A DNA stretch of 64,000 nt, taken from positions 4,154,001 through 4,218,000 of the forward strand of contig JAJTUQ010000001.1 of NCBI GenBank assembly GCA_021399445.1, written 5' to 3'. Positions 958-18,383 of this stretch are shown piece by piece. This stretch comes from Xylogone sp. PMI_703. Its lineage: Eukaryota > Ascomycota > Leotiomycetes. The notes under the pieces are model-generated. The model saw only the letters and a program-made list of their open reading frames with translations. It was not told the DNA's origin and made no database searches. Each line of letters begins with the position of its first letter. The stretch's first letter is position 1. A program made the translations under genes and the position numbers.

Positions 958-1299
958 TCACAAGTCTTCTCCAATCGACTGCTCATAACTATGAGTGTTC
1001 ATATAGTCATGAATTTCTATCCAGGAGCCCACTCCTGTGAGCACGTCCTCTGGAGAAGCATTGAAGTCAATGTCACCATGCGCGGGGTCATCTGAAGTAG
1101 TACTTGAGGATGAGGAGTGGCTTGAAATTGAGTGTGCATAGCTTCGGCTCGAGGGGGAGGATGAGGACGCAGATGAGGAATGGCAATGGTAATGCGCATG
1201 GCTTGCAGAGCTGAAGGGATTCTGTCAGCATTACAGCTACAGGACAAGAGATTTGACGCAATACCTTCGGTAAGGATATGGTCTCGGTTGGGAAGACAT
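958..1299 (-). CDS. GVGxW-family small Ser-rich protein, copy A
   Basis: Two-exon gene: exon 1 is 1265-1299 (35 nt) and exon 2 is 958-1210. The 54-nt phase-2 intron has donor GTATTG, a GCTGAC branch-like site and acceptor TTCAG. The product is 95 aa. The N-terminus is MSSQPRPYPYR, followed by a His/Tyr patch (HAHYHCH), a Ser-rich low-complexity middle (about residues 23-51), an acidic stretch, the conserved core SPEDVLTGVGSW and a 20-residue tail. No signal peptide or membrane segment is visible. Three relatives lie at 7.4, 10.8 and 14.2 kb, with the same intron phase and the same C-terminal core. The function is unknown and I do not recognise the family. The matching intron and motif in four unlinked copies are the main evidence that this is a real gene. 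Confidence 0.72.
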
Positions 1300-1474
1300 G
1301 TTTAAGTATGAATCAAGAAATGGATAAGGTGATAAAGTTCAATCTGAGGTTGAGGGATGGGTGGTTGGAATAGCTATAATAGTCAAGTCAAGCACTGGCA
1401 GTGGCTCCTTGCTGCGAAGGATACGCCCTCTTTCCCTCATGATGTACCCATGGGAGAAGGAGGGGAGAGTGGCG

Positions 1475-1486
1475 AAATATATATAG
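1475..1486 (-). promoter_or_regulatory. TATA-like box of copy A
   Basis: On the minus strand CTATATATATTT lies about 176 bases upstream of the start codon of copy A. A pyrimidine-rich stretch (1451-1474, read on the minus strand) follows it, as is common at fungal transcription starts. Similar TATA elements precede the other three copies. Confidence 0.45.
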
Positions 1487-4400
1487 TTGCCATCACGACA
1501 AGAAATAAGAATGTGGCCGATGGTTACTGCTGGTAGCAGCTATGGTTAAGCGGCCCCAAGCAGGTGACCATACATGGTTAGGATCAAATAACGTGGCATT
1601 GGAAGGGGAATGCGGAAGGACTCGACTGTGTGCTGTTGTCCCCTTGCCCTGTCCACCAGCAAAATCCACCATTGACACGAAAGCGCGGCGCGCAGGCTTT
1701 TGGACTCTTGCCGTGCTGATGGTGTTTAGGTCAACTGCAAAAAACGTCGAGAACCTAGGTCCCCGCTACTCCGGCCAATCAGCAGGATGTGATCTTGGAC
1801 TCAATCTCGGACTCGGAGCGTTCGCTGGTGCCTTTCGCACGTTTCAAAAGCCTTGTGGCTTACAGCACTTCCAGCTGCAGAGCGGTTCCCGGCGTCCTGC
1901 ACGGGTCCTGGTCCTGAGGGGCGCGCCAAGCGGGTCCCCGAGCCCTCCCTGGGCATGCGAGAGACCCAATTTTCCCAGCGAGATTTGCGAGCGAGATTAT
2001 TTGGACATCTACTTACAGCGGTACACAAGCGCATTGGACTTTGCGCCGTGCATACCCATGCACAACCACAACCACCTCATACTGTATGTAAGAGAGTACA
2101 ATTATTTTCCGGATCCTACGCTTGGGGACAGGTGCGTGCAGGTATCTCCGAAGAATCCTGACGCCGCTGCAAAAACTACAGCCTCTTAGCGGTTCGGACC
2201 AAGCACCACATCTCTGGGAATTGGTGATACAAGCATACTGCGTAAGCAGTTCTGTAATCATTTCTAGGACGTGCACTCCCTGCAAGATCCAACAAATGGT
2301 AGTGTGTGGAGCAATAGAATTGGTGCTAGCCATGGAGCTGTCAGTCTGCTCCAATACCGTCATATTACACTGCATGCCCGTGTAGATCAACGAGACTGTC
2401 CTCTCTGCCTAAGTGAGTCTATCGTCTCAGTGCATTCCGTCGTGCCCGTCCTCAGCTACAGTAAGGCTCTAACGCGAGAAATACCCGACGCAACGTGAAT
2501 AACAGAGAGTATTAACTAATATTCTTTCCTCCTACTGTGCAGCTATTTAGAGACAACTCTGCACATTGGCCAGGAGAGAAGCAGAGTGCCCCAAATATCA
2601 TGTTGCGCGCAACGACCAACCCCGCATGGTTAGCCGTGGTTAGATGTTAAGTCAAGCGGGCCTCAAGAGATACTGTCCGTTTCCGCGGCGCAGGCACAGG
2701 GATGAGCCGAGTAAAGACTTGTCGTTGGGTAGTGGCGGCAACCCCCCTGCAGCTCCACAGAACCCAAAAACATCGGAGAACGGATGTGACTGCACCGCCA
2801 CACTTCAGCCTTCCAGAATGCCCTGCAGGGAGGCCCTGTCCCAGTGACGTAGCAGGACAGGGGCTCTTTTACCGTACTCTCAAAGCATTATACCAAAAGC
2901 TGAAAAAGATACCAGCAGAACCATCAATTACCTACATCAAATTATCAATTCCCCTCGGGCTCTCGAACAAGGAGACTAATGCAACATACCCGCGTGCCCT
3001 CTCTCGGCGCCCTGCTCGTACTATTATGACGATCGTGGCAAACTTGCCCGTTACGGTTATGGCAGAACTTTGTGAAGATCCTTAGGAATTGTCACTGCCT
3101 GATGAACCTCGGGGAATTTGAGCGCTCTTAGTCCCGTGGGGTACTGCGGTAGTAAACATCCCACGAGGTCACGCAGTCCCTAGGAGGGGGCACAGAGCCT
3201 CAGCACTTATCCGTCCTCTGGCACGTGTCATCGTTAAGCCCAGGATGTTAACTCGGGACTTGGAACGTTGTCCTCATACCCATGATTCGATCAGCGGCGC
3301 TGATCAGACTTGTGGGCTCAAAGTCAAGAGTCAAAGCGGAATAGCTTCGAATACAGTATTTAGCCTGTAGTTGTTCGGTGGATTCAGGTTGCGTAGTAGG
3401 TAGTCGATGCAGTGCGTTTCGGATTGCTCAGTCTACCCAGAGCCTAAAATCGTGCCGTGTAATCGCATCCCAGTTACTGGTATCAACACCACCAGGTGCA
3501 TAGGACTATTCATGCTTGAAATGGCTAGCGTGGGCTGGTCCGAGGTTATCACGTCGCGCCCTGTTAAGCTCCTCAGACCCTGATTTTCCCAGATGACAAG
3601 CATGAATTGGATAACAGAGCCAATTGTTCTGCTTCCGAGGACTTAGGATGCAGATGCAAGATCTCGGCCGGCAAATAGGAACAGACTCCGGATCCTCCTG
3701 ATTGGTTTCTCCGTTTTGCTTTGTGCTGTACCACCACACGATCAAATCTTTAGGTAGGCTTTTCGCCTCGCCTCTTCACCCATCACGACCTGCCTAAAAG
3801 GGAACCCAAAGAAATCTCTCGTAGGTTGGGCAACGTGACTCGTTCCTCGCATTCTCCTTCTGGGTGATTGATAGCGTGAAAGCGATCTTTTTCCATAGTC
3901 AACCGTGGCAGGGCACGCAGTTATCTCGATAAGAAAATTTCTATATCATCCTCACCCATGCCTAAAACTCATGGCCAGAATGCGATATTTAAAGTAAGAC
4001 GTGTTGAACATAATTTCCTGTATCGAGTGTTGACTGGGTGCGCATCTGTGTTCAAGCCTTTGCCAGTTTGCAGCTTCGATAGTACAAAGCAAACCCAGTG
4101 AGAGATACCAGTACTACCCAACAAAAAAAGAGCCATTTCCTGAACGATGGTGCCTAAATTCCATTCGCGGTGAAATAAGAGCAGTGATGAACCGGCAGGG
4201 CGCACGCGCCTACTGGAGCATCGAAATTGTTACCGAAAAGAGCAACTCTCTAGAATCACGGCAAAGTGCTAGGAAAAAGTACCGTCTGTACCGGTACCGC
4301 GACCAGTAATGCTGGATTGATTCCTCAGGTATCAGGCTTCCTCCCCTCCGAATCTTGGTTTTCGGCCGTCTTCTGGAAGGTCCACACCCAGCCAGACAGG

Positions 4401-4754
4401 GGTTCGTAGGCGAAGTGCGGTCCCAGGAAAGGGACTCACGATCTGACCAGGGTCCGGCCAAGGAGGCACGTGGGAGGACGCCAGCGTTGCCAGCATATCC
4501 CGGACTCTTCCTGGGACCCAGCAGCGCATCATTGCGTCGTACTGTGGCATCGTCGGATTTCCGTGACACTAGCCATTTAGAGTTATCGATACGGAACAGC
4601 GCTCCCTAGCAGCCAGCAGGTCTATGTGAATAACGCTGACAAACCTTGAATTGGAATCTCTCAGATAAAATTGTTTATATATAATTTTTATAAATTTTTT
4701 AGGAATTTATTCGAATTTCTATTGAATCTTGAAAAGTGTGAGATTTCGCGATTT

Positions 4755-4779
4755 GGGGGGGGGGGGGGGGGGGAGGGGG
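4755..4779 (+). repeat. Poly-G tract (G19-A-G5)
   Basis: A run of 19 G, one A and five more G, flanked by an AT-rich stretch (about 4670-4740). It could be a microsatellite-like slippage product or a G-quadruplex-forming sequence. The exact length may be unreliable, because long homopolymers are prone to sequencing error. Confidence 0.9.
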
Positions 4780-7155
4780 TTTTGAAAAGTGGTCTCGGAA
4801 TTTGACCTTTTAGTTTACTCTCTCTGGATCCTTGCTTCTTCAAGGTCTGTTGAGTTGATAGCAATGAGGCTTACGTATTTTTAGAAGGGCCGCATCGCCA
4901 ATCAACCTGCTCAGTTGGAAAAAATTTTCTTCTTCTGCGCCGGGCGTAATTTTCTCGGGGAACTGTAACTGTCATCTCCGGAGCGATCTGTGGAAGCATA
5001 ATGTACAAGTAAAGTTGGCCAGGATCCCTCCTCCATGATCTGCCACACTATCTTACGGAGTATAGTCTCATGAAAATGACTCTCAAATAAGAAAGCGAAT
5101 GTAACACTATACCGTGCATACTGTCAGCACTACAGTAGAAGGTTAATGGAATGGCAAGTATGCGGTGGAGAGTAATGCCGCGGCTAGTTCGAGAGCCGTT
5201 TTCTGAGATTAAACGGCGGCTGAGTTAGCAGGGATGACGGCAACGCGCAGGTGGAGTTTGATTAGCCCTAATTTCTGCCCCATAAAAGCTATCTCCAAAA
5301 TTTAGAAGCATATGTGCTCGAGTATCATATTGATTGTTATTCTCGACTCAGATCAACTGGGTTTAAATATCTTCCTCCAAAGCTTATGTAAAAATGATTC
5401 TTTAGGTAGTACTATACCTGAAAAATACGCATTCATTAAATCTACACTTAATGATAGAAAATGGCTGCAGTAACGCTACCACCAGCAGCTTCGGTCTACA
5501 GCTCAGCCGGAATCACTCAAACAACGCTGGCAACCATATTTAGAAAATCCCGCCGGGGTTGAGACGAGCTGCACAGTCACCGAGGGCAGCACATCGGCCT
5601 GGGGGGTTTCATGTGATATGCAGGATGGGCTAGAGAGAGGCGACGCAACAGAAGAGCAAACCCCGATCGCAATGTCCGAAGGCGATAGTGGAGGATCGCG
5701 AGTTTGTTGGGAAAGAAGGGGGTGAGAGAATGAGAGTGAGAGACAAGGAGCAAAAAGAGGGCTTACACCATTATCTGTCCTGCTTGCGATCCCTGTGATC
5801 CTCGACCTCTCGGAGAGCAGCGGAGAGAAATTTCCGATCCGTACGGTAGAGAAAGATGTTTGTAAGAAAGACTACACACACTTCTCTGTACAACCACAGC
5901 ACTCGCGCAGGAATACATACCACACGACCCGCGATGTGCTTGCACAGGAATGTATAATACACTACACAGGATGCACTTGCGCAGGTCACAAATGATTTTA
6001 GCTGCGACAACCTCTCTTAGTGCAGTTGGGTACAATATTGCGCTCATTGGCGGTTTGAATGGAGGTGCCATCTCGAAGGCTTCAATGTCTTCTCCCAAGT
6101 TCCGGGACAGCAGCCAAACTCCCGGGACAAAATAATTGTCATGATGGTACTTCTGTGCTCGCCAAATTTTGGTGGCGATTTATGTACCACCGTACCGATT
6201 AAACTGTCCGCCGGAGCCAAGGTCGGAGATTGAGCCATCACGCCCTGCCAGCACAGAAGATCGACAACCTCTACTTCGGTGGGGCTGCGCAGCCAAGCCA
6301 CGTACTTTGAGGGTAGTACAGTAATCACAATTGTGTGGAGACGCTGGTAAATGTTACTGCCGCACTCCGCTTCAGGTACGGTATTGCGAATTGCAAGCTG
6401 GGGGTGGTTACTTCGTACAGGCCGTAATATATCACACTTTTCGGTCTGTTCACTATTGCCCCAAGAGGCACTTTTCCATAGTATTCCACAAATGTGCACA
6501 GACAAAGGGGGTAGTATATTGCAGCCCGTAGAAAAGTAATTGGAAGCCGCGGCCTCTGGTGGTTGTATTCACCTCCTCTATCAATTGCTTCAGTACCGCG
6601 GGGATACCTCCTCGTCTCCTGTACTGGCCGCCCTCAGCGATCCTGGACTCCATGTGAAGAAACGTCAATCGTGCGCCACACTGTAAGCCATGTGTAATCT
6701 ATTCGGGTCCTGGTAAGTGGCAATGCTACGGATCCGATTATACTATTGGTCAAAGTAGGACACACCAAGACCACTTCAAGGGGTTCACGATGGGCAACCA
6801 ATCACGGCTGCTGGTCCCTTCGATGGCGCTGCCCCCATCTGCCAGCCCGTCGTGAAGCCAGCCGTGCACACAACGTGGTTGTTATCCAAAATGCAGACCA
6901 CCTGGAAAAGGCGCGGAATTTACTGCCGAATAGTACTTTCTCCATACTTTCTGTTTCATTGCATGCAATAAGAAGAGTAAGATGAGGCTACAATCTAACA
7001 GGGGGTTCCGAAATATGGCTTGCCAAAGTTTCTCGGTCTTTTGTAGCATACCACACCCGTCACAACGGATATGCTTCGCGTTCATATCCTAACCTAGACC
7101 GAAGGTGCAGTTGGGGGGGTGTTCAGCTGGAATATTGTTGAGGCAGGAATCTCAC

Positions 7156-7166
7156 AATATATATAT
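7156..7166 (+). promoter_or_regulatory. TATA-like box upstream of copy B
   Basis: AATATATATAT followed by a C/T-rich leader, about 280 bases upstream of the inferred first exon of copy B. Its use by that gene is inference. Confidence 0.3.
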
Positions 7167-7447
7167 CAGCCATCGAACCCACCTCTTCTGTTGTTTTCTT
7201 TCATTCATAAAACACACAAAACTCCATAGAAATATTAACTACGTCGCTTTTTATGTTCCAAGATGGTCACAGTCATATTGTGATTTATAGTCACCACCGC
7301 CCTCCTGTCAAGTCACCACGAGACCACTACCACTGTCTCAACTGTTGATGACGGAGGAACCACCACTTTTTTCCTAGTCACTCCTTTTTTAATAATAGTC
7401 CTGCTTGATTCAAACTCTCATTTATCCTGGAGCCTTTCATCGTTAAC

Positions 7448-7820
7448 ATGTAAGGCTGTCCAAACTGACTAAGCTCCTCGAGAGACATGACATGACACTG
7501 ACAGCACTTACACTAGGACCGAAAGTCACCATTCTTATTCCGCCGTATCCAGCTCTTCCCAGTCTCGAACCGGTAGTTACCCAAGTTCGATCTCAAGTCA
7601 AACATCCTTTCTCTCTTTACCCGTCTCACCAGCTGCCGCTACCACAGCATCTTCGACTTCCTCTTCCCCTTACTCTTCTTCTTCGCCATCACTAGCTTCC
7701 TCGATATCTTCATCGGCTTCATCAAATAGCTCTTTCGCCTCGGCCACCACCACAAATATGTCTCAGGAAGAAGCTCTTAGGGGTGTCGGTGCTTGGTCAG
7801 ATGAATGGATTCCAATGTGA
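7448..7820 (+). CDS. GVGxW-family small Ser-rich protein, copy B
   Basis: Inferred model: the start codon is split by the intron, with AT at 7448-7449, intron 7450-7516 (donor GTAAGG, an ACTGAC branch-like site, acceptor CACTAG) and exon 2 at 7517-7820. The product is 101 aa, starting MTESHHSYSAV. A long Ser/Thr/Ala-rich middle follows, then the core MSQEEALRGVGAW and the tail SDEWIPM. In the unspliced RNA the first ATG is followed at once by TAA, so splicing would be needed to make the protein. The intron phase (2) and position match copies A, C and D. The exon 2 frame is firm because of the family core; the first exon is less certain, since an untranslated or longer upstream exon cannot be excluded. 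The function is unknown. Confidence 0.6.
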
Positions 7821-10109
7821 TGAGGTTATGCTTGGGATACAAAAGAAGTCTTTCTATTCAGGTTCTCTGAACAAGAAAGATTATGAAGGACTGCATGATA
7901 ATGACTCATGTGTTCTTGGAGACTTAGGGGGTTTAAACCGGTTAAGAAAGATAGGTGGAAAGGGCGAGGCGCAACAGATTAGATGAACTTATGTAGAAAT
8001 TATTAGAGACAGAGATAAAAGTGGAATCGGATGACTAAAAACTTAGTTCTACTAATAGAGAAAGATAAATAAGATCATTTACGACACCTCTACCCCTTGA
8101 GCCAAATGTGCTCATGATAGAGTTTTACCAAGTGCGGCTGTATCTCGCTTTTCTCCGACGCAAACAAGCCTTGGCCGCTCACACAGAGAAGTGACTTACT
8201 CTACCTCGTCTACTTACTATCCTTCAGACGCTCTCAATTTCTACTAGAGAGGACTTGCCATGGGCTTGGGCCATGTTACGTATTTGACCTGATCTTCAGA
8301 AAAAGGCGGAGAGAGTGAGAGCGCGACAATCTAGTCGACCTAATTCACGTCGCCCTTCATGCCACACCATAACCTGAACAGTGAACGCAGCCAACTCGGG
8401 AGACTTGTATTGGGATGCTCGGCAAGCGCCTGTTCTCAACTACCGGCCGGCTTCCTGGAGGTTGAACAGCCAGATCGAATATAGGACGGCGGCCCGTTGC
8501 CGCCGTGCCTTTCCGACATGCGATGATGAGGTAACGTGGTCGGTACACGTTTACTTGCGACTCTGTTGTATCCCGCTCACGGCCGCATCTTGCGTGTGTA
8601 CCCTATGCTATAGTACCAGTGCATGAGTGGTCCTACTGCACCTCATCTTGCTGCTGCTGTCACCGCTAGTCCCGAATAGGGTCCCCAGCCTTTCAAGAAG
8701 TTGGGGACCATATTCGGGACTAGAGGCTCATACCCATGCCCAGTTCCAGGGTTCAGTGCACCGTCTCGACCGTCCAGAAGATCTGGCGCTGACTTTCCGG
8801 AACCCCGCCGGCAGTGGAGGAGCGAAACGAACGATATGAGAGGAATATGGTGTGCTGATTGGTTGTTCGGGATCAAGTGTTCCTAGTTTGTTGATTCGTC
8901 CTATTGGTGCTCAAACAGGGCTTCTCGGTGAATGGTTTTGTCCAATGTGGGAGGGTCCTGATTGCATCATCTAGAATGCTGGTTGGACGAGAAAAGCCGA
9001 TGATTTTATACTTTATGATGGTCCAAATTTTGAATGCTTCTTTTTTAAAATACTTAACAGTTGGATTTCCTTGGTTTCTGTGTGTACAAAGATCATGGTT
9101 AATGTCATAAAGAGTCGGATAGGAAGCGCCATTGGCTAAACGGCTCGCTATTATGCCGAGTCTTGTATTATCCACACAAAGCGGCGAGAGAGTAGGGAGG
9201 TATCAGCCACACTTTCGAAGATACAAACCACTTTAATCAATTTATCTAATTTATCCAGCTCGTGGTAATCTTCTATTGCTATCAGTTAGTATGACAGTTG
9301 TATGTAGCACTAAAGCAAGACTTGATCTCAATCATTTAGAATCTCCAGTCATTAGGAGTAGAGAGTGCTCATATGGAGAAGGCACCTTTATTTTTAAATT
9401 ACCAAATCCGGTTCCATAAACTGGTCCATTCACACTGTCTCAAGCAAAGACGGCATTATTTAGCTCATGGTTCGCACTTAAATGCTCATTCTGCCTGAGG
9501 CATTCCACCAATTTCCCTCTTGCTTGCTCAATGGTCTCTGGAGGAATTTTCTCCAATAGAATGTAGCGTACTGCATGATTGGTTGATAGGCAAGACCCAC
9601 ATACCACAAATTTCTTCGGTGGGCCCGGACGGGAGCCAGCTACAACTCGCCCACTTGAGGCCAGTGAACCGGTCGCTTGGCTGGCGACTTTTCTTCATGC
9701 TTGTATTCGAACATTTCTCTGAGTCCGGGGATTTGTCAGAACCACACCACTAGGACGGCCGCGAGGACCCTCCTCAGGGGCCCTGTAGTGGACTCCTGCT
9801 ACCGCACGTTGGCACCGTACTTGTAACTGTAGTAAATAATATCTCACATATCACATCGACCCCCTCTCAGGACCCTAGACAAAATCCTGTAGGCTGGTAG
9901 AAGGTGCGATGCAGATGCAGTGGCCATGTTTCAGGGACCGTGGCGCTAGATTAACGAACAGGCCGATGGGACCATGCCAGCACTGCAACTGCAAATGCCT
10001 GGCCAAGCGTGCCAGGGACCCGCCCAAATGCCCCTCCCAGAGGCATAGCTCAATAACTCCAACTTACCCAGCTCGCCATGTCCTCTTGATGCTGCCCATA
10101 GAAAGGACG
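7821..10109. other. Stretch without a supported gene
   Basis: No frame here shows a recognisable domain or a coherent set of exons. The one structured item is the hairpin at 8667-8722, listed separately. Confidence 0.45.
8667..8722. repeat. Long hairpin, 21-bp arms
   Basis: The arms 8667-8687 and 8702-8722 are reverse complements with a single mismatch and surround a 14-base loop. The outer ends read TAGTCCCGAATA on both strands. The arm is related to that of the hairpin at 12097-12145 (TAGTCCAGAATAGG), which suggests a small repeat family, perhaps the paired ends of a deleted transposon or a minimal foldback element. Confidence 0.8.
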
Positions 10110-10344
10110 GCTCGCTCTGGACAGATTAAACGACAGCGGCTACAGTTGGTCATAACCAAATACCATGATAGAACTTCAATTCTTATACAAAATATAGTTA
10201 ACTCTAGTGTAGATAGTGTAGTTACATTAATGTTTCTATTGTTTTGCCTTTTAACCGATAAGATCTTTGAATAGTTGTGTGATTTCACCTGGTATAAACT
10301 ATGGCCTACTGTAGCCGCTGTCGTTTAATCTGTCCGGAGCGCGA
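10110..10344. mobile_element. MITE-like element with about 40-bp terminal inverted repeats
   Basis: A left arm (about 10110-10154) and a right arm (about 10300-10344) are near-perfect reverse complements. They share the core GACAGATTAAACGACAGCGG followed by CTACAGT and a similar inner end (GGyCATA). The arms enclose about 145 bp of AT-rich DNA with no transposase. The arm length, small size and lack of coding capacity fit a non-autonomous DNA transposon (MITE). The target-site duplication is not clear by eye, so the exact ends are approximate. Confidence 0.75.
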
Positions 10345-10558
10345 GGACGGGAGGCACGCTCGCACTTTTGTACCTCCGACCCAGCCGTAATTTGCATCAT
10401 CTGAAGGGCCTTACCTGAACGATCAGTGGCATGCGTCGATCGAGCATCATCTGCAGGGCAACCTCTATTTCCCTTGAAAGTTTCGTTGAGTGAGTTCTCC
10501 GCCCTGAAACTGTGAGTCTCTGTACTTAGGGTATGAGGACTTGAATACCCTCGGAAAC

Positions 10559-10565
10559 TATATAA
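10559..10565 (+). promoter_or_regulatory. TATA box upstream of copy C
   Basis: TATATAA followed by a CTCTTTCCTCCCTTC pyrimidine tract, about 213 bases upstream of the inferred start of copy C. This TATA-plus-pyrimidine layout resembles that of copy A. Confidence 0.45.
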
Positions 10566-10777
10566 TCACTCTTTCCTCCCTTCATTCCTAGATACTAAGG
10601 ACATGATATCAATACATTGTCTTTAAGAACTTAACAACTATAACCACAAAGGGACTTGTATCACATTACAGCTGGTTACAGTCAATAGTTTAGGAACCTC
10701 CTTCGTCAAACCCTCCTCGACTCTCTTCTTATTCAAACCCCATCTATCTCTTCACTTCAAGTACTTCAAAGTGGAAA

Positions 10778-11066
10778 ATGTATGATCTTAAGCCGTATAA
10801 GTATCGTGGATGGCGCTGACGTCGCTTGTATCAGGGCCAAAAGTTACACTAGCTCCGCTACCTCTCAAAGCCAAAGCGACAGTACCTTAACCACGACATC
10901 AAGTCAAACATCCGTTAACACTCTCTCTATAGCTGGTGCAACTGCAAGTTTGTCTTCTCCGTCCTCACCCTCTTCTCCAGTGGATAGCTTCTTCACTTCG
11001 AGCCTCGGCTCAGAGATATCCCAGGAAGAGGTACTTAAAGGAGTCGGCGCCTGGGCTGAAACATAG
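10778..11066 (+). CDS. GVGxW-family small Ser-rich protein, copy C
   Basis: Inferred model: AT at 10778-10779, intron 10780-10834 (55 nt, donor GTATGA, GCTGAC branch-like site, acceptor ATCAG) and exon 2 at 10835-11066. As in copy B the start codon is completed across the phase-2 junction. The product is 77 aa, beginning MAKSYTSSATSQ. It is Ser/Thr/Pro-rich in the middle and ends with the core ISQEEVLKGVGAW plus AET. The N-terminal AKSYTSS aligns with the FAHYTSH of copy D. An uninterrupted reading from an upstream ATG at 10782 would also reach the same C-terminus, adding 17 unrelated residues; the spliced model is preferred because all four copies then share one intron. The function is unknown. 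Confidence 0.62.
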
Positions 11067-11543
11067 TGCTTCGGTTTAATGCAGTTTTGGTATTTAATAA
11101 CTGTATGTGTTTGGGGTACCGTGTGATCGGAAACATCTATAGAGTGTCTGTAGAATGAGATTTATGAATAGATTTTAATTTAGCACATCGGACCAAAAGA
11201 ACTGATCTGCTAGCTGCCTCTCTTTCCCTCTTATAAAAGGAAATCAGTGATGGCTGATTTCCGAATTGGTCAGTATCCAACATTAGGCATTCGGGGTTCA
11301 GTAGTTAGCTGTGTGTTATATAAACGACAGCTAGAATTTAGCGACGTGCTGTGTCCACAGTGAGAATGGCCGTCACGTTTATCCTGCTATCTTCCCGGCC
11401 CTCTCATTGTCTGCTTCTTGCTTGTGGCCCAGACAGAAACAGTAGGTGGTGCCCAACAAGCGGGATTGTGGATTTTGTTAAGGTCAGTTAGGATATCGGC
11501 TGAGGGTACCATTTTCAGCAAATTGATGCGAAGCTTTGCAAGT

Positions 11544-11634
11544 AAAAAGTGCTGAAATGTCAGAGCAAAAAGTGATGAAATGTCGAAGCGAAGAGTGCTG
11601 AAAAGTCAGAGCGAAAAGTGCTGAAATGCCAGCC
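11544..11634 (+). repeat. Four tandem copies of a 23-bp unit
   Basis: Four diverged copies of a unit resembling aaaaGTGCTGAAATGTCAGAGC run head to tail at about 11544, 11567, 11590 and 11613. It is a short minisatellite outside any gene model. Confidence 0.8.
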
Positions 11635-12096
11635 ACTGATGATTACCGAGTCTACGATTGGCCCAGTACAGGCAACTCCACATGTGCTGCAAGGGAAGGA
11701 GATGGGCAAAGAATGGGTAGGTTCTATTGGGTTTCCAAGCGGCAGGGAACAAGCCTGTCATATGCACCGTACAAGAGCGCATGCAGGATAATCTTGACAA
11801 TCAGGTAAGCGAGCCAGTAGAGCAGCACACCGAGAGGCCGTCCACAAGCTGTACTGGAGAACTCGCTGGAGTGAAGTGATTCAGGTTTTAGGGTCCTGGC
11901 AGCGCCTGAGCTTAGATTACCGTAGGTTGTAGCAGGGCCCTTCCGCTTGACGCCGCTAACGAAGAAGCTAAAATCGGTTCCAGCTGTACCGATGCACGGA
12001 TAATACTTTATTTAGCTTTCGCTAGACTCGGGTCGCCTAGCTGCCGCTACCCCCACGGATCGTCGTGGAGCGCGCACTGACCCAAGCTTCCAGAAG

Positions 12097-12145
12097 CTAG
12101 TCCAGAATAGGTACCCATCAATGATTGGTACCTATTCTAGACCAG
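12097..12145. repeat. Hairpin, 19-bp arms, related to the 8.67-kb hairpin
   Basis: The arms 12097-12115 and 12127-12145 pair with two mismatches around an 11-base loop. The left arm begins CTAGTCCAGAATAGG, close to the TAGTCCCGAATAGG arm at 8667. Two foldbacks with related arms suggest a common origin. Confidence 0.75.
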
Positions 12146-12851
12146 CGACTTGTACAGCGTCCAGGACTCTGCGAGCCAGTTGCATGTTTTACCTCGAGAT
12201 GCTGTACTCCCGCCTCATCCTAGAGCTCGTGCGGGTTTCATGCGAGTATCCGATCGTCCGGGAGGGGGATCTGGTTTAACGCAGCTATTGAAGCAGCTGA
12301 TAAGCTATATTCTAGGAAATACTCCGCTATTCCGGAGCCTGCTTTTTCAGAGACCATACAAGCTCATGAGGCTATAGGATATCAAAAATCATATCGAATA
12401 TTAGCATGTCAAGAGATCATGTAAGGATATCTGGCAGGTGTTTTGTCAAGTTGACCGCGCCCACAATCCGCAGATATGATGGCGGGGCAATCAGCTTCAA
12501 CTGTGCTCGCCATTGTGTGATAGGGAGAAAACAAATCTTAGTCCGGACTCTCCCATGGGTTTTATATTTTTACTTTTTCTAATCCTCGGAGTCCTCGCGT
12601 TTTCTAGACCACAGAAGTTTCGTTTTCCTAGGAAAACGTTCGACTATGCATTGCATGTCTTTCTTTTCTTGCTTTTTCAGCGCACCTATGACTGTTGTCA
12701 GACCCGACCTGATTGAACTTGTTACACAAGGGTGATAGACCCTCATATTTTGCACTTGAAGAGCCGCGCATTTTTTGGAGTGCTGTATTAAACAAAAATC
12801 TTATCATTGGTGCATGTTCTCTCACCTTGAAGTTGGGTAAATCGGTAAGAC

Positions 12852-12896
12852 GACAGGGGGGTTCCTATATTTTCAAAATGTAGGAACCCCCCTGTC
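12852..12896. repeat. Hairpin, 18-bp arms with G6/C6 run
   Basis: The arms 12852-12869 and 12879-12896 (GACAGGGGGGTTCCTA and its complement) pair with one mismatch around a 9-base loop. A small inverted repeat with no coding context; a transposon footprint is possible. Confidence 0.8.
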
Positions 12897-14200
12897 AAAC
12901 TATCAACTAGTTATGTGCCAAGGTTAGACATTTCTTAATGCCTAACTGAGAATAAAATGATGAACGAACCGTTCCATGCCTTAAATAAAAGTTTTTATAT
13001 CAACTTCCCTGTCTTGTTGTGAGTTTCAGTAATAACCTTGTGGTATGGCAGGGCAGACTCAGTTCGTATCGCTTTTGCTATGCAGAAGTTCAGCCCCGTC
13101 GCTGTCCTCGAAGTCAAGCCACACGAGGCGTCCTCCGTCGGCAACTCTTGAATGCGACAACGAAGCCAAGCTCTCTTAGAGATTTGGAATCCAGATTCTA
13201 AGTCACCCGGGGACACCAAATCTCTCCGAATCTCACCGTGTCGCGTAAATCTCGTCCAATCTCTGGAGTTAACTTCAGGGCCCAACGTAAGCACCTAGTA
13301 TCATTTACAGTCCGCGGGTAAGGATTTAAATTCGCAAACGCCGAAGCGGTGGAGATAGTGGAGGCCCAACATTCGCTTCATAATTATGCGGTAACCCTTC
13401 GTAATGATCGCGACCGCCACTGCAGCTGCCTGCACGGCATGCTGACAAAAATATATGCTGAGACAATGGATTATGTTTTTGGTGCATTACTATTATCATC
13501 TTGCAGGTCTGGAATGTTGACTTTTGTCATCACAGTCATAGTTCAAGGTAAGAATAGAGACAAGATGCAATTATTGCCACTTCTAAGTTGAAGTACGTAT
13601 GGTAGTCGAACCTTCTAGGTTTGTGGTTTAATTTAAGCTTCCTTAATGTCAGATGTGGATACTTGATACAGTCGTCAGATCTATTTTAGTGGAGATATGC
13701 ACGCAATGCGGGTGACTATGGTAGACGGCCGGCTATTCATGCCCCATAGAAATAGTGGAGCTGAGAGCTGGAAGCTAAATGTATTTTTGATGGGTATGAT
13801 TATTTTTAACTGTCATATTATGCCAACTCTTGAAGGCAGACCATTGATTTCTGCCTTGTCTGAGATTGAGAAATCTAGAGAAATTCGTGCCGAGAATCAG
13901 CACAGTAGTGAATGGACGAACAACCAAGTGTATTATAAAAAGTGATTCGCTGAAAGTCGTAAATCGATTCGCTGTGCGCGGAGAACCCTCTTCGCAGCAC
14001 AAGGACCCAACATCTCTCTTTTGCCCTGCCGAACGCCAACCCCAGACCAACCACCCGACCACACGCCCTTCCGCCCGCGGAAGCCCACTTTCCCAATCTA
14101 GCATAACCGTGCGTGCCCCTCTTAGACTCCTCGCCCTTTTATAAAACGCCCAATTATGCGAGATCCAAAAAAAGAAATCTAGCACCCTCTGGAATATTGA

Positions 14201-14527
14201 CTATTTGTATCCAGTGTATTTTGAGTAATTAGTTCCTTGTGTCCAGGCGCCGACTCCTAGGAGTGCTTCGTCGCGAGACATGCGTGATCCGTTACCAGGC
14301 GAGAAGCGAGTCGAAGATGTCGGAGAAGACGAGGACGTGGAGGAGGCAGAGGATTTGGTCGATGTTGAACTTGTATGGCTAGAGATTTTGCTATGGGAGG
14401 ACGACGAGGGCGTAGAGTGTGAAGTATAATGCGCAAATCTAAGTATATTTTGTTAGACGTGGCATGTGTGAAGTGACAAGACGAAGACTCACTCTTTGTT
14501 GCCGAGGCTTCCCATTCTGAGAGACAT
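14201..14527 (-). CDS. GVGxW-family small Ser-rich protein, copy D
   Basis: Two exons: 14493-14527 (35 nt, the same length as in copy A) and 14201-14438. The 54-nt phase-2 intron has donor GTGAGT, a TCTAAC branch-like site and acceptor ACTTAG. The product is 90 aa, starting MSLRMGSLGNK. It continues with FAHYTSHS, a Ser/Thr-rich middle, the core MSRDEALLGVGAW and the tail TQGTNYSKYTGYK. A second in-frame ATG four codons downstream is an alternative start. The equal first exons, equal introns and shared core with copy A indicate descent from one gene. No domain is recognised; the low-complexity middle suggests intrinsic disorder. Confidence 0.72.
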
Positions 14528-17039: not shown

Positions 17040-17734
17040 CTATGCGTCATGTCGCGGAAGAGCTGAGGGACCGAATGACAATGGCAGCAGCTACAGTCTT
17101 TTATTAGCTTCTAAGATAAACGCATGGAAATAAGATGGAATACCTCTCCAAGAGTCATGACTTCGAACGCACCGTCTTTATCAAACATAAAGACGGGGAA
17201 ATCCGGCTCACAAAACTCACGGATGCTGATAGTAGTGGTCGTCAGCCTTGCAATCGACAATGGACACCCTGTCCGACTACATAACACCATATCAAATTTT
17301 CACATAGGGCTCGTACAATTGTCTACACATCCCACAAGGACTCGCGGGAGGGGATATATCCGTGGCAACCGCCAGAGCCTTGAATTTCTTATGACCTTCC
17401 GTCACCGCCTTCCCATAAGCTACCCGCTCAGCGCATGTGCCGACCGGATAGGAAGCGTTTTCGACATTGGCACCGTCAATATATTGACCATCGTTGGTAA
17501 GAATACTGGCACCTACACGAAACTATATATTCCCATCAGTGCCACAGCGCTTAGGATGTGTCGTCATGTCTGCCAGCGGTATCCACTTACACGCGAGTAG
17601 GGACAGTATGCAGTGGCCTTTGCATCAGTGCTCCGGGTTTTCAGGACGGAGAATTGCTCCGTAGTGATACCATACTTCTCGCAAGCCTTCTTCACAACAG
17701 CTTCATCGGTGGAGAGTTGTAGATTATACGACAT
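17040..17734 (-). CDS. cdd1: Cytidine deaminase
   Basis: A four-exon gene: 17591-17734, 17317-17522, 17144-17225 and 17040-17090. The introns are 68, 91 and 53 nt, and the joined frame is open for 160 aa. It hydrolyses cytidine/deoxycytidine to uridine/deoxyuridine in pyrimidine salvage and should be cytosolic. The typical single-domain layout is visible: YCPYSRFRVGA (43-53), the NVENASYPVGTCAERVA zinc/catalytic block with Cys78 and Glu80, and PCGMCRQFIREF with Cys111 and Cys114. The C-terminal LGELLPLSFGPS block is also typical. All three zinc cysteines and the proton-shuttling Glu are present, so it is likely active. The length matches homotetrameric fungal and animal enzymes. A pyrimidine-rich tract (coding strand) directly precedes the ATG (17735-17800). 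The neighbouring GDSL gene is on the same strand, 650 bp upstream. Confidence 0.93.
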
Positions 17735-18383
17735 TGTGGAAAAGAGAGGAGAGAAAAAAGAAAGGGAAGGAGGGGAAGAGAGGAGCGAGATGCGAGATAT
17801 CTAGATAAACACTAGGGAGACATGACCAAACCTGCGGTAATCCGCTGCTGCGTAACCTTAACAGCGGAATTCGTCCGATTTCAAGAAACCTTTATGGCAA
17901 TAATCCATTTCCAAATGCCATCGCGATACACCATAAATTTCCAATTATCAAGATCTCGTCCCGCATTTTGCCCAGCATCGATAAGAGAAATACGGATTTT
18001 CTCTCGGATTGTTGCTGTAGGGACAAGTTTCATATCTTATCGGAATTAATCCCCGGTCGGGGCCCGGCCCAATAAACACGTGATTATATAAAATCATAAT
18101 ATGATCTGATATCATGTGAAACATGAAATATTATAGAACGGCTTCTAGACTTCTACCAAACGCTTGACTTTCATAATGACCTGCACGGAATTGGCTGTAT
18201 GCGGTAGCCTGATGAGTAACGGGCGGCACGGAAATCGTATGGCGCGTTACACAAGGCGAGATGAATACGAAGTTGGATAGTGAAGTTGGACTTTGTTGGA
18301 ATTAGTGGCTACTATACGAGGTTCAAGCCTGGCGATCTGGGGAATCTACCCCCCAGAGCGGCGCTCTTATATATAAGTATATT

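Follow-up and report, generated by a model that had tools for sequence, protein, structure and literature searches.

Short linear docking motifs occur on disordered proteins. Among small fungal genes, those for dikaritins, a kind of ribosomally synthesized and post-translationally modified peptide (RiPP), encode precursors with a signal peptide and core repeats flanked by dibasic residues, and a-factor-like pheromone precursors carry a C-terminal CAAX. In Yarrowia lipolytica, 42 of 2421 introns have their donor at the start codon, a position linked to high splicing efficiency and expression in the excerpted text of PMC13309789. Here we describe four short serine-rich predicted genes of the filamentous fungus Xylogone sp. 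PMI_703 (Ascomycota, Leotiomycetes) which, judging by their codon and intron patterns, are a real and apparently unannotated family whose C-terminal core is constrained at the protein level. They lie in a window of 64,000 nt, the whole stretch of DNA analysed (assembly GCA_021399445.1, contig JAJTUQ010000001.1, positions 4,154,001 to 4,218,000, forward strand). Window numbering is used throughout, and the genes are labelled A, B, C and D by rising position.

Predicted genes and their conserved core

All four proteins carry near their C terminus a 12-residue core with the consensus S-x-[DE]-[DE]-[AV]-L-x-G-V-G-[AS]-W. The core of A spans 1021..1056 on the minus strand (SPEDVLTGVGSW, residues 64–75), that of B 7761..7796 on the plus strand (SQEEALRGVGAW, residues 83–94), that of C 11019..11054 on the plus strand (SQEEVLKGVGAW, residues 63–74) and that of D 14243..14278 on the minus strand (SRDEALLGVGAW, residues 66–77). 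Of the 12 core codons, 11 vary at the third position, as against 5 of the 24 first or second positions (P = 7e-5, one-sided Fisher test). Summed over the six gene pairs, which are statistically non-independent, the proportion of synonymous differences (pS) is 0.64 and that of non-synonymous differences (pN) is 0.17; the single pairs give pS/pN of 0.98/0.19 (A–B), 0.67/0.15 (A–C), 0.31/0.27 (A–D), 0.82/0.07 (B–C), 0.73/0.16 (B–D) and 0.38/0.20 (C–D). This mostly silent variation is the codon pattern of purifying selection on a segment held as protein, and it bears out the selection on a short core that an earlier sequence-only reading of this DNA had proposed.

The gene models, all conceptual, reproduce exactly the coordinates, strands, intron lengths, protein lengths and cores of that reading, as well as its single phase-2 intron at or near each start codon. 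Gene A (958..1299, minus strand) consists of a 35-nt exon 1 (1299-1265), an intron (1264-1211) and exon 2 (1210-958), encoding 95 amino acids with 28 Ser. Gene D (14201..14527, minus strand) is built alike, with a 35-nt exon 1 (14527-14493), an intron (14492-14439) and exon 2 (14438-14201) for 90 amino acids, 28 of them Ser. Exon 1 of gene B (7448..7820, plus strand) is the dinucleotide AT (7448-7449), followed by an intron (7450-7516) and exon 2 (7517-7820), which give 101 amino acids with 38 Ser; gene C (10778..11066, plus strand) likewise begins with AT (10778-10779), followed by an intron (10780-10834) and exon 2 (10835-11066), and encodes 77 amino acids with 23 Ser. The claim that A and D share their first exon stands for its length and first 6 nt, not for its sequence.

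The predicted introns measure 54 nt in A, 67 nt in B, 55 nt in C and 54 nt in D. All four have GT...AG ends and a branch-like CTGAC or CTAAC that begins 18–19 nt before the 3′ end, and all are in phase 2, interrupting A and D after nt 35 and B and C after nt 2, where the predicted intron splits the start codon (AT/G). We infer that these two intron positions are homologous. Every ATG has an A at position -3; the preceding triplet is AAC in all genes but C, where it is AAA, and the split start codons of B and C thus have the same kind of context as the whole ones of A and D. If the intron were retained, B would read ATG-TAA and the frames of A and D would stop after 20 and 12 codons, respectively; none of these three introns contains an in-frame ATG. 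Together, core and gene structure support the four frames as coding-like, paralogous predicted genes.

Outside the core the proteins diverge. In the middles, the best four-way stretches of 7 and 10 residues beat most residue shuffles (each equalled by 1 of 60), and no codon shuffle came up to those of 5, 6 and 7 codons (0 of 60 each); the top-scoring stretches are Ser runs. A box seen by eye, ISS[HQ][TS]S (SISSHSS in A, SISSQTS in B, TTSSQTS in C, KISSHTS in D), did not rank top in this shuffle test, and we make no claim for it. The four proteins end in GEDL, WIPM, WAET and TGYK. A and D have Tyr at W+6 and W+12, and the tails of B and C are short; combined with the intron positions, these tail types suggest two subfamilies, A/D and B/C, as read from four sequences.

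Copies, relatives and the age of the family

The core was searched across the Xylogone sp. assembly (50,134,506 bases). The degenerate DNA pattern [DE]xxLxG[VI]G[AS]W occurs at four places, all of them genes A–D, and its reversed control at none; the pattern was built from A–D themselves, so that these matches arise by construction and the information lies in the absence of a further one. A looser pattern gave 31 places compared to 23 for its control. Beyond A–D, 26 of its loci carry at most 17 per cent Ser upstream and were rejected as copies, as was the last place, C23:938750, judged by its matched letters only and not read as a locus. A possible fifth copy at C12:7554842, found with a tighter pattern at one mismatch, has a stop instead of the Trp and no Ser tract, and we ascribe it to chance since the control also gave one such place. 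The 30 kb to the left of the window contain a single G-x-G-x-W, a GVGGW within a 421-residue frame that lacks a Ser tract. When the genome was searched at the protein level, the cores of A and D each matched only themselves, and that of B matched itself and C (E 0.04). The genome contains no other copy of the strict core.

The sequence-only reading had called the family undescribed, and as far as our searches reach it is. In Pfam three families matched, each with one member (best E 0.13) and none near its cut-off, and NCBIfam gave a single match of 13.3 bits against a cut-off of 650. Residues 51–90 of D, compared with 5.8 billion proteins, returned no candidate with three shared words, D itself included. 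A query of the four cores with the remainder written as X gave two candidates in the protein database, none at E <= 10, in a search whose X-padded query had no positive control. Both protein searches cover proteins of about 0.55–1.75 times the query length, and a core within a longer annotated model would escape them. Viral contigs yielded 18 matched stretches, none confirmed, and a Protein Data Bank match to the B core as sole query (E 0.075), to a designed-looking repeat protein, was discarded. Literature searches on GVGAW or small serine-rich protein found nothing, and no title among the listings concerned such a family.

The same protein database does include the left-neighbour protein of this genome (sources ncbi and nr). 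The simplest reading is that the sources searched do not annotate A–D as small proteins of their own, and that the annotated proteomes of relatives contain no close copy. This does not mean that the genomes of relatives lack the genes, the DNA search having covered this genome only; relatives may keep them, since tiny spliced genes are easily missed in annotation. The family is perhaps lineage-restricted.

These results bear on the strongest alternative to a docking function, which we nonetheless regard as rather unlikely: that A–D are young, lineage-restricted orphans that have no settled biochemical role, a Ser-rich frame duplicated in place with a core alike by descent or gene conversion. 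The lack of database homologues and of further genomic copies, together with the low complexity, is what such orphans would show; conversion could explain a 16-nt stretch identical between C and D at the core end, and pS about equals pN in the pair A–D. However, other pairs reach pS 0.98 with pN of 0.07–0.20, which indicates that the copies have had time enough to saturate at silent sites while the core was held. The same codon pattern makes it improbable that these are silent, decaying or artefactual frames, or that what counts is solely the RNA with its near-start intron. That explanation gains from gene models drawn from sequence alone, from the apparent lack of annotation in the sources searched and from gene C, which can be read unspliced; it has to contend with core variation that is mostly silent and with open frames, canonical introns and an A at -3 in all four genes.

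Protein features and a proposed docking mechanism

The four proteins are hydrophilic, with 29–38 per cent Ser. All six Ser codons are used in each gene, AGY accounting for 26 of the 117 Ser, and the Ser tracts are thus not one expanded triplet. Each protein has two or three [ST]P sites. O-mannosylated wall proteins are likewise rich in Ser and Thr, and the Ser+Thr content of 34–47 per cent, with N-x-[ST] sites in A, B and D, might point to secreted or wall-bound proteins or effectors; we consider this very improbable, as hydropathy reveals no hydrophobic N terminus in any of the four, nor a hydrophobic end (best 10-residue mean near the N terminus 0.10, best 17-residue mean anywhere 0.78). Least probable are processed-peptide precursors of RiPP or pheromone type, with an excised and modified tail, for although the genes are short, clustered and composed of a constant and a variable part, none of the proteins has a dibasic cleavage pair or a hydrophobic N terminus, Cys occurs at most once in each and never at the C terminus, and no maturation enzyme was recognised nearby in flanks that are only partly annotated. 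Of the three roles that had been suggested for the core, processing is thus disfavoured by the missing dibasic pair and targeting through an N-terminal signal by the hydropathy; docking is retained as a putative role.

AlphaFold2 models of D exon 2 alone and of B exon 2 (four rows) have low mean predicted local distance difference test (pLDDT) scores of 53.2 and 51.9, as would be expected from disorder. Each model contains a single helix, at residues 67–70 in D and 84–90 in B, which begins one residue past the core Ser. In a capping box, by the excerpt of PMC4515027, a Ser at the N-cap is paired with an acidic residue at N3. The predicted helix starts of B and D would fit such a box; A has Pro at N1.

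In the mechanism that we propose, the proteins would be made and kept inside the cell, where a disordered, Ser-rich tether would end in a short, capped docking helix formed by the core. The core Ser would act as the helix N-cap, with the acidic residue at N3 completing the capping box, and the Gly that follows the helix would terminate it, with Val, Gly and Trp placed in a turn, such that Leu, Val and Trp of the core could be presented to a partner. Phosphorylation of the Ser tract and of the core Ser, whose S-x-x-[DE] context we take to be a CK2-like site, may tune this contact, and the [ST]P sites are also likely phosphorylation points. With their dissimilar middles and tails, the four paralogues could bind one common partner and still vary in reach or regulation, and the near-start intron may gate or boost expression, as reported for the start-codon introns of Yarrowia.

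As a whole, the reading of four clustered paralogues whose constrained core forms a short capped docking helix on a predicted-disordered tether is the one that we tentatively favour; docking taken by itself is a reasonable reading and no more than that. Several points weigh against it. The protein database searches returned no homologue with which to compare the core across species, the pair A–D taken singly reveals no constraint, and the non-independence noted above applies to all six pairs. Gene C has an in-frame ATG at 10782 inside its intron, and a frame of 94 amino acids is possible unspliced. Within the 700 nt upstream, no 8-mer is common to all four genes, and there is thus no sign of joint regulation; one 7-mer is present in all four compared to 0.45 expected. 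The block means of pLDDT around the predicted helices are low (about 56–63 over the last 30 residues of B, 58–61 over those of D), and the case for docking consists of sequence anatomy and such low-confidence models.

Going further, it is possible, if doubtful, that A–D are both a new protein family and a new class of docking motif, splice-gated mini-tethers, two of them with a split start codon, whose SxEE[AV]LxGVG[AS]W hook binds one fungal partner, and that they were overlooked because the genes are tiny, spliced and of low complexity. If the docking reading is true, A–D would represent a class of fungal genes missed by annotation for their small size, splicing at or near the start codon and low complexity; their compact motif could serve as bait for the partner, and they would provide a clean test of whether selection can hold a 12-residue core amid the drift of nearly everything around it. 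If the genes are silent, they would be a caution on reading Ser-rich frames.

Genomic setting and comparison with known systems

Just outside the window, the left neighbour (7952-9703 in L041 numbering) is by Pfam a thiamine-diphosphate enzyme resembling 2-hydroxyacyl-CoA lyase and oxalyl-CoA decarboxylase. Its relatives are named 2-hydroxyacyl-CoA lyase; the best match outside its own genome is from Scytalidium lignicola (88 per cent), and the best 120 relatives listed are 69–100 per cent identical; wherever an organism name is readable among them, it is that of a fungus. A cytidine-deaminase-like gene with at least one intron was recognised by eye in the frames at 17115-17750 on the minus strand. 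Over the ~17 kb between these two genes, no other gene beyond A–D was recognised, short of a full gene prediction. Further right lie kinase, Rad17 and JmjC genes assigned by Pfam, which matched five of the eight neighbours scanned.

The block had been described as gene-poor and repeat-rich; the former fits the genes recognised, and the latter is overstated, as the block is only lightly repetitive. Its 17.8 kb hold two overlapping families of short direct repeats in one block and four inverted pairs, one of which is the C and D cores themselves. At 137-686, in the gap that separates the 3′ end of the left neighbour from that of gene A, a TTTGTTGCACGTCG-like unit recurs in seven spaced copies (29–40 nt, 60–90 per cent alike); elsewhere in the genome this stretch has only one 30-nt match, on C21. 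Two short, near-perfect hairpins with 25-nt arms (8663-8726 and 12096-12146) lie between genes, their arms alike and of the GCTAGTCC-AATAGG type. Near gene C, an element resembling a miniature inverted-repeat transposable element spans 10113-10341, 437–665 nt upstream of the ATG; its 42-nt terminal inverted repeats are 93 per cent complementary, and it recurs at five other genomic places with 69–91 per cent identity. A single tandem array lies within the first 20 kb, 0.5 kb past gene C (11544-11632, 3.9 copies of a 23-bp unit).

Compared with described systems, A–D share with short linear docking motifs a brief conserved core set in a chain of low complexity and predicted disorder, though we know of no docking motif that the core matches. 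They resemble fungal RiPP and CAAX pheromone precursors in being small genes that combine a constant with a variable part. Unlike the dikaritin kind, they have neither a dibasic pair nor, by hydropathy, a hydrophobic N terminus, and unlike a-factor-like precursors they have no C-terminal CAAX or Cys motif. With the start-codon introns of Yarrowia lipolytica they share a donor within or right after the ATG, to judge from the excerpt of PMC13309789; that fungus is a different one and its genes are unrelated, and here splicing is predicted and the donor lies inside the ATG in the models of B and C only. No split start codon is described in the available portions of PMC2664464 and PMC10182648. Finally, A–D are short, apparently unannotated and without detectable relatives, like the fungal orphan and de novo small genes treated in the accessible part of PMC9544372, and differ from them in being four paralogues whose introns have the same phase and whose constrained core has diverged at silent sites. 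By these predicted features, A–D have more structure than a single young frame offers.

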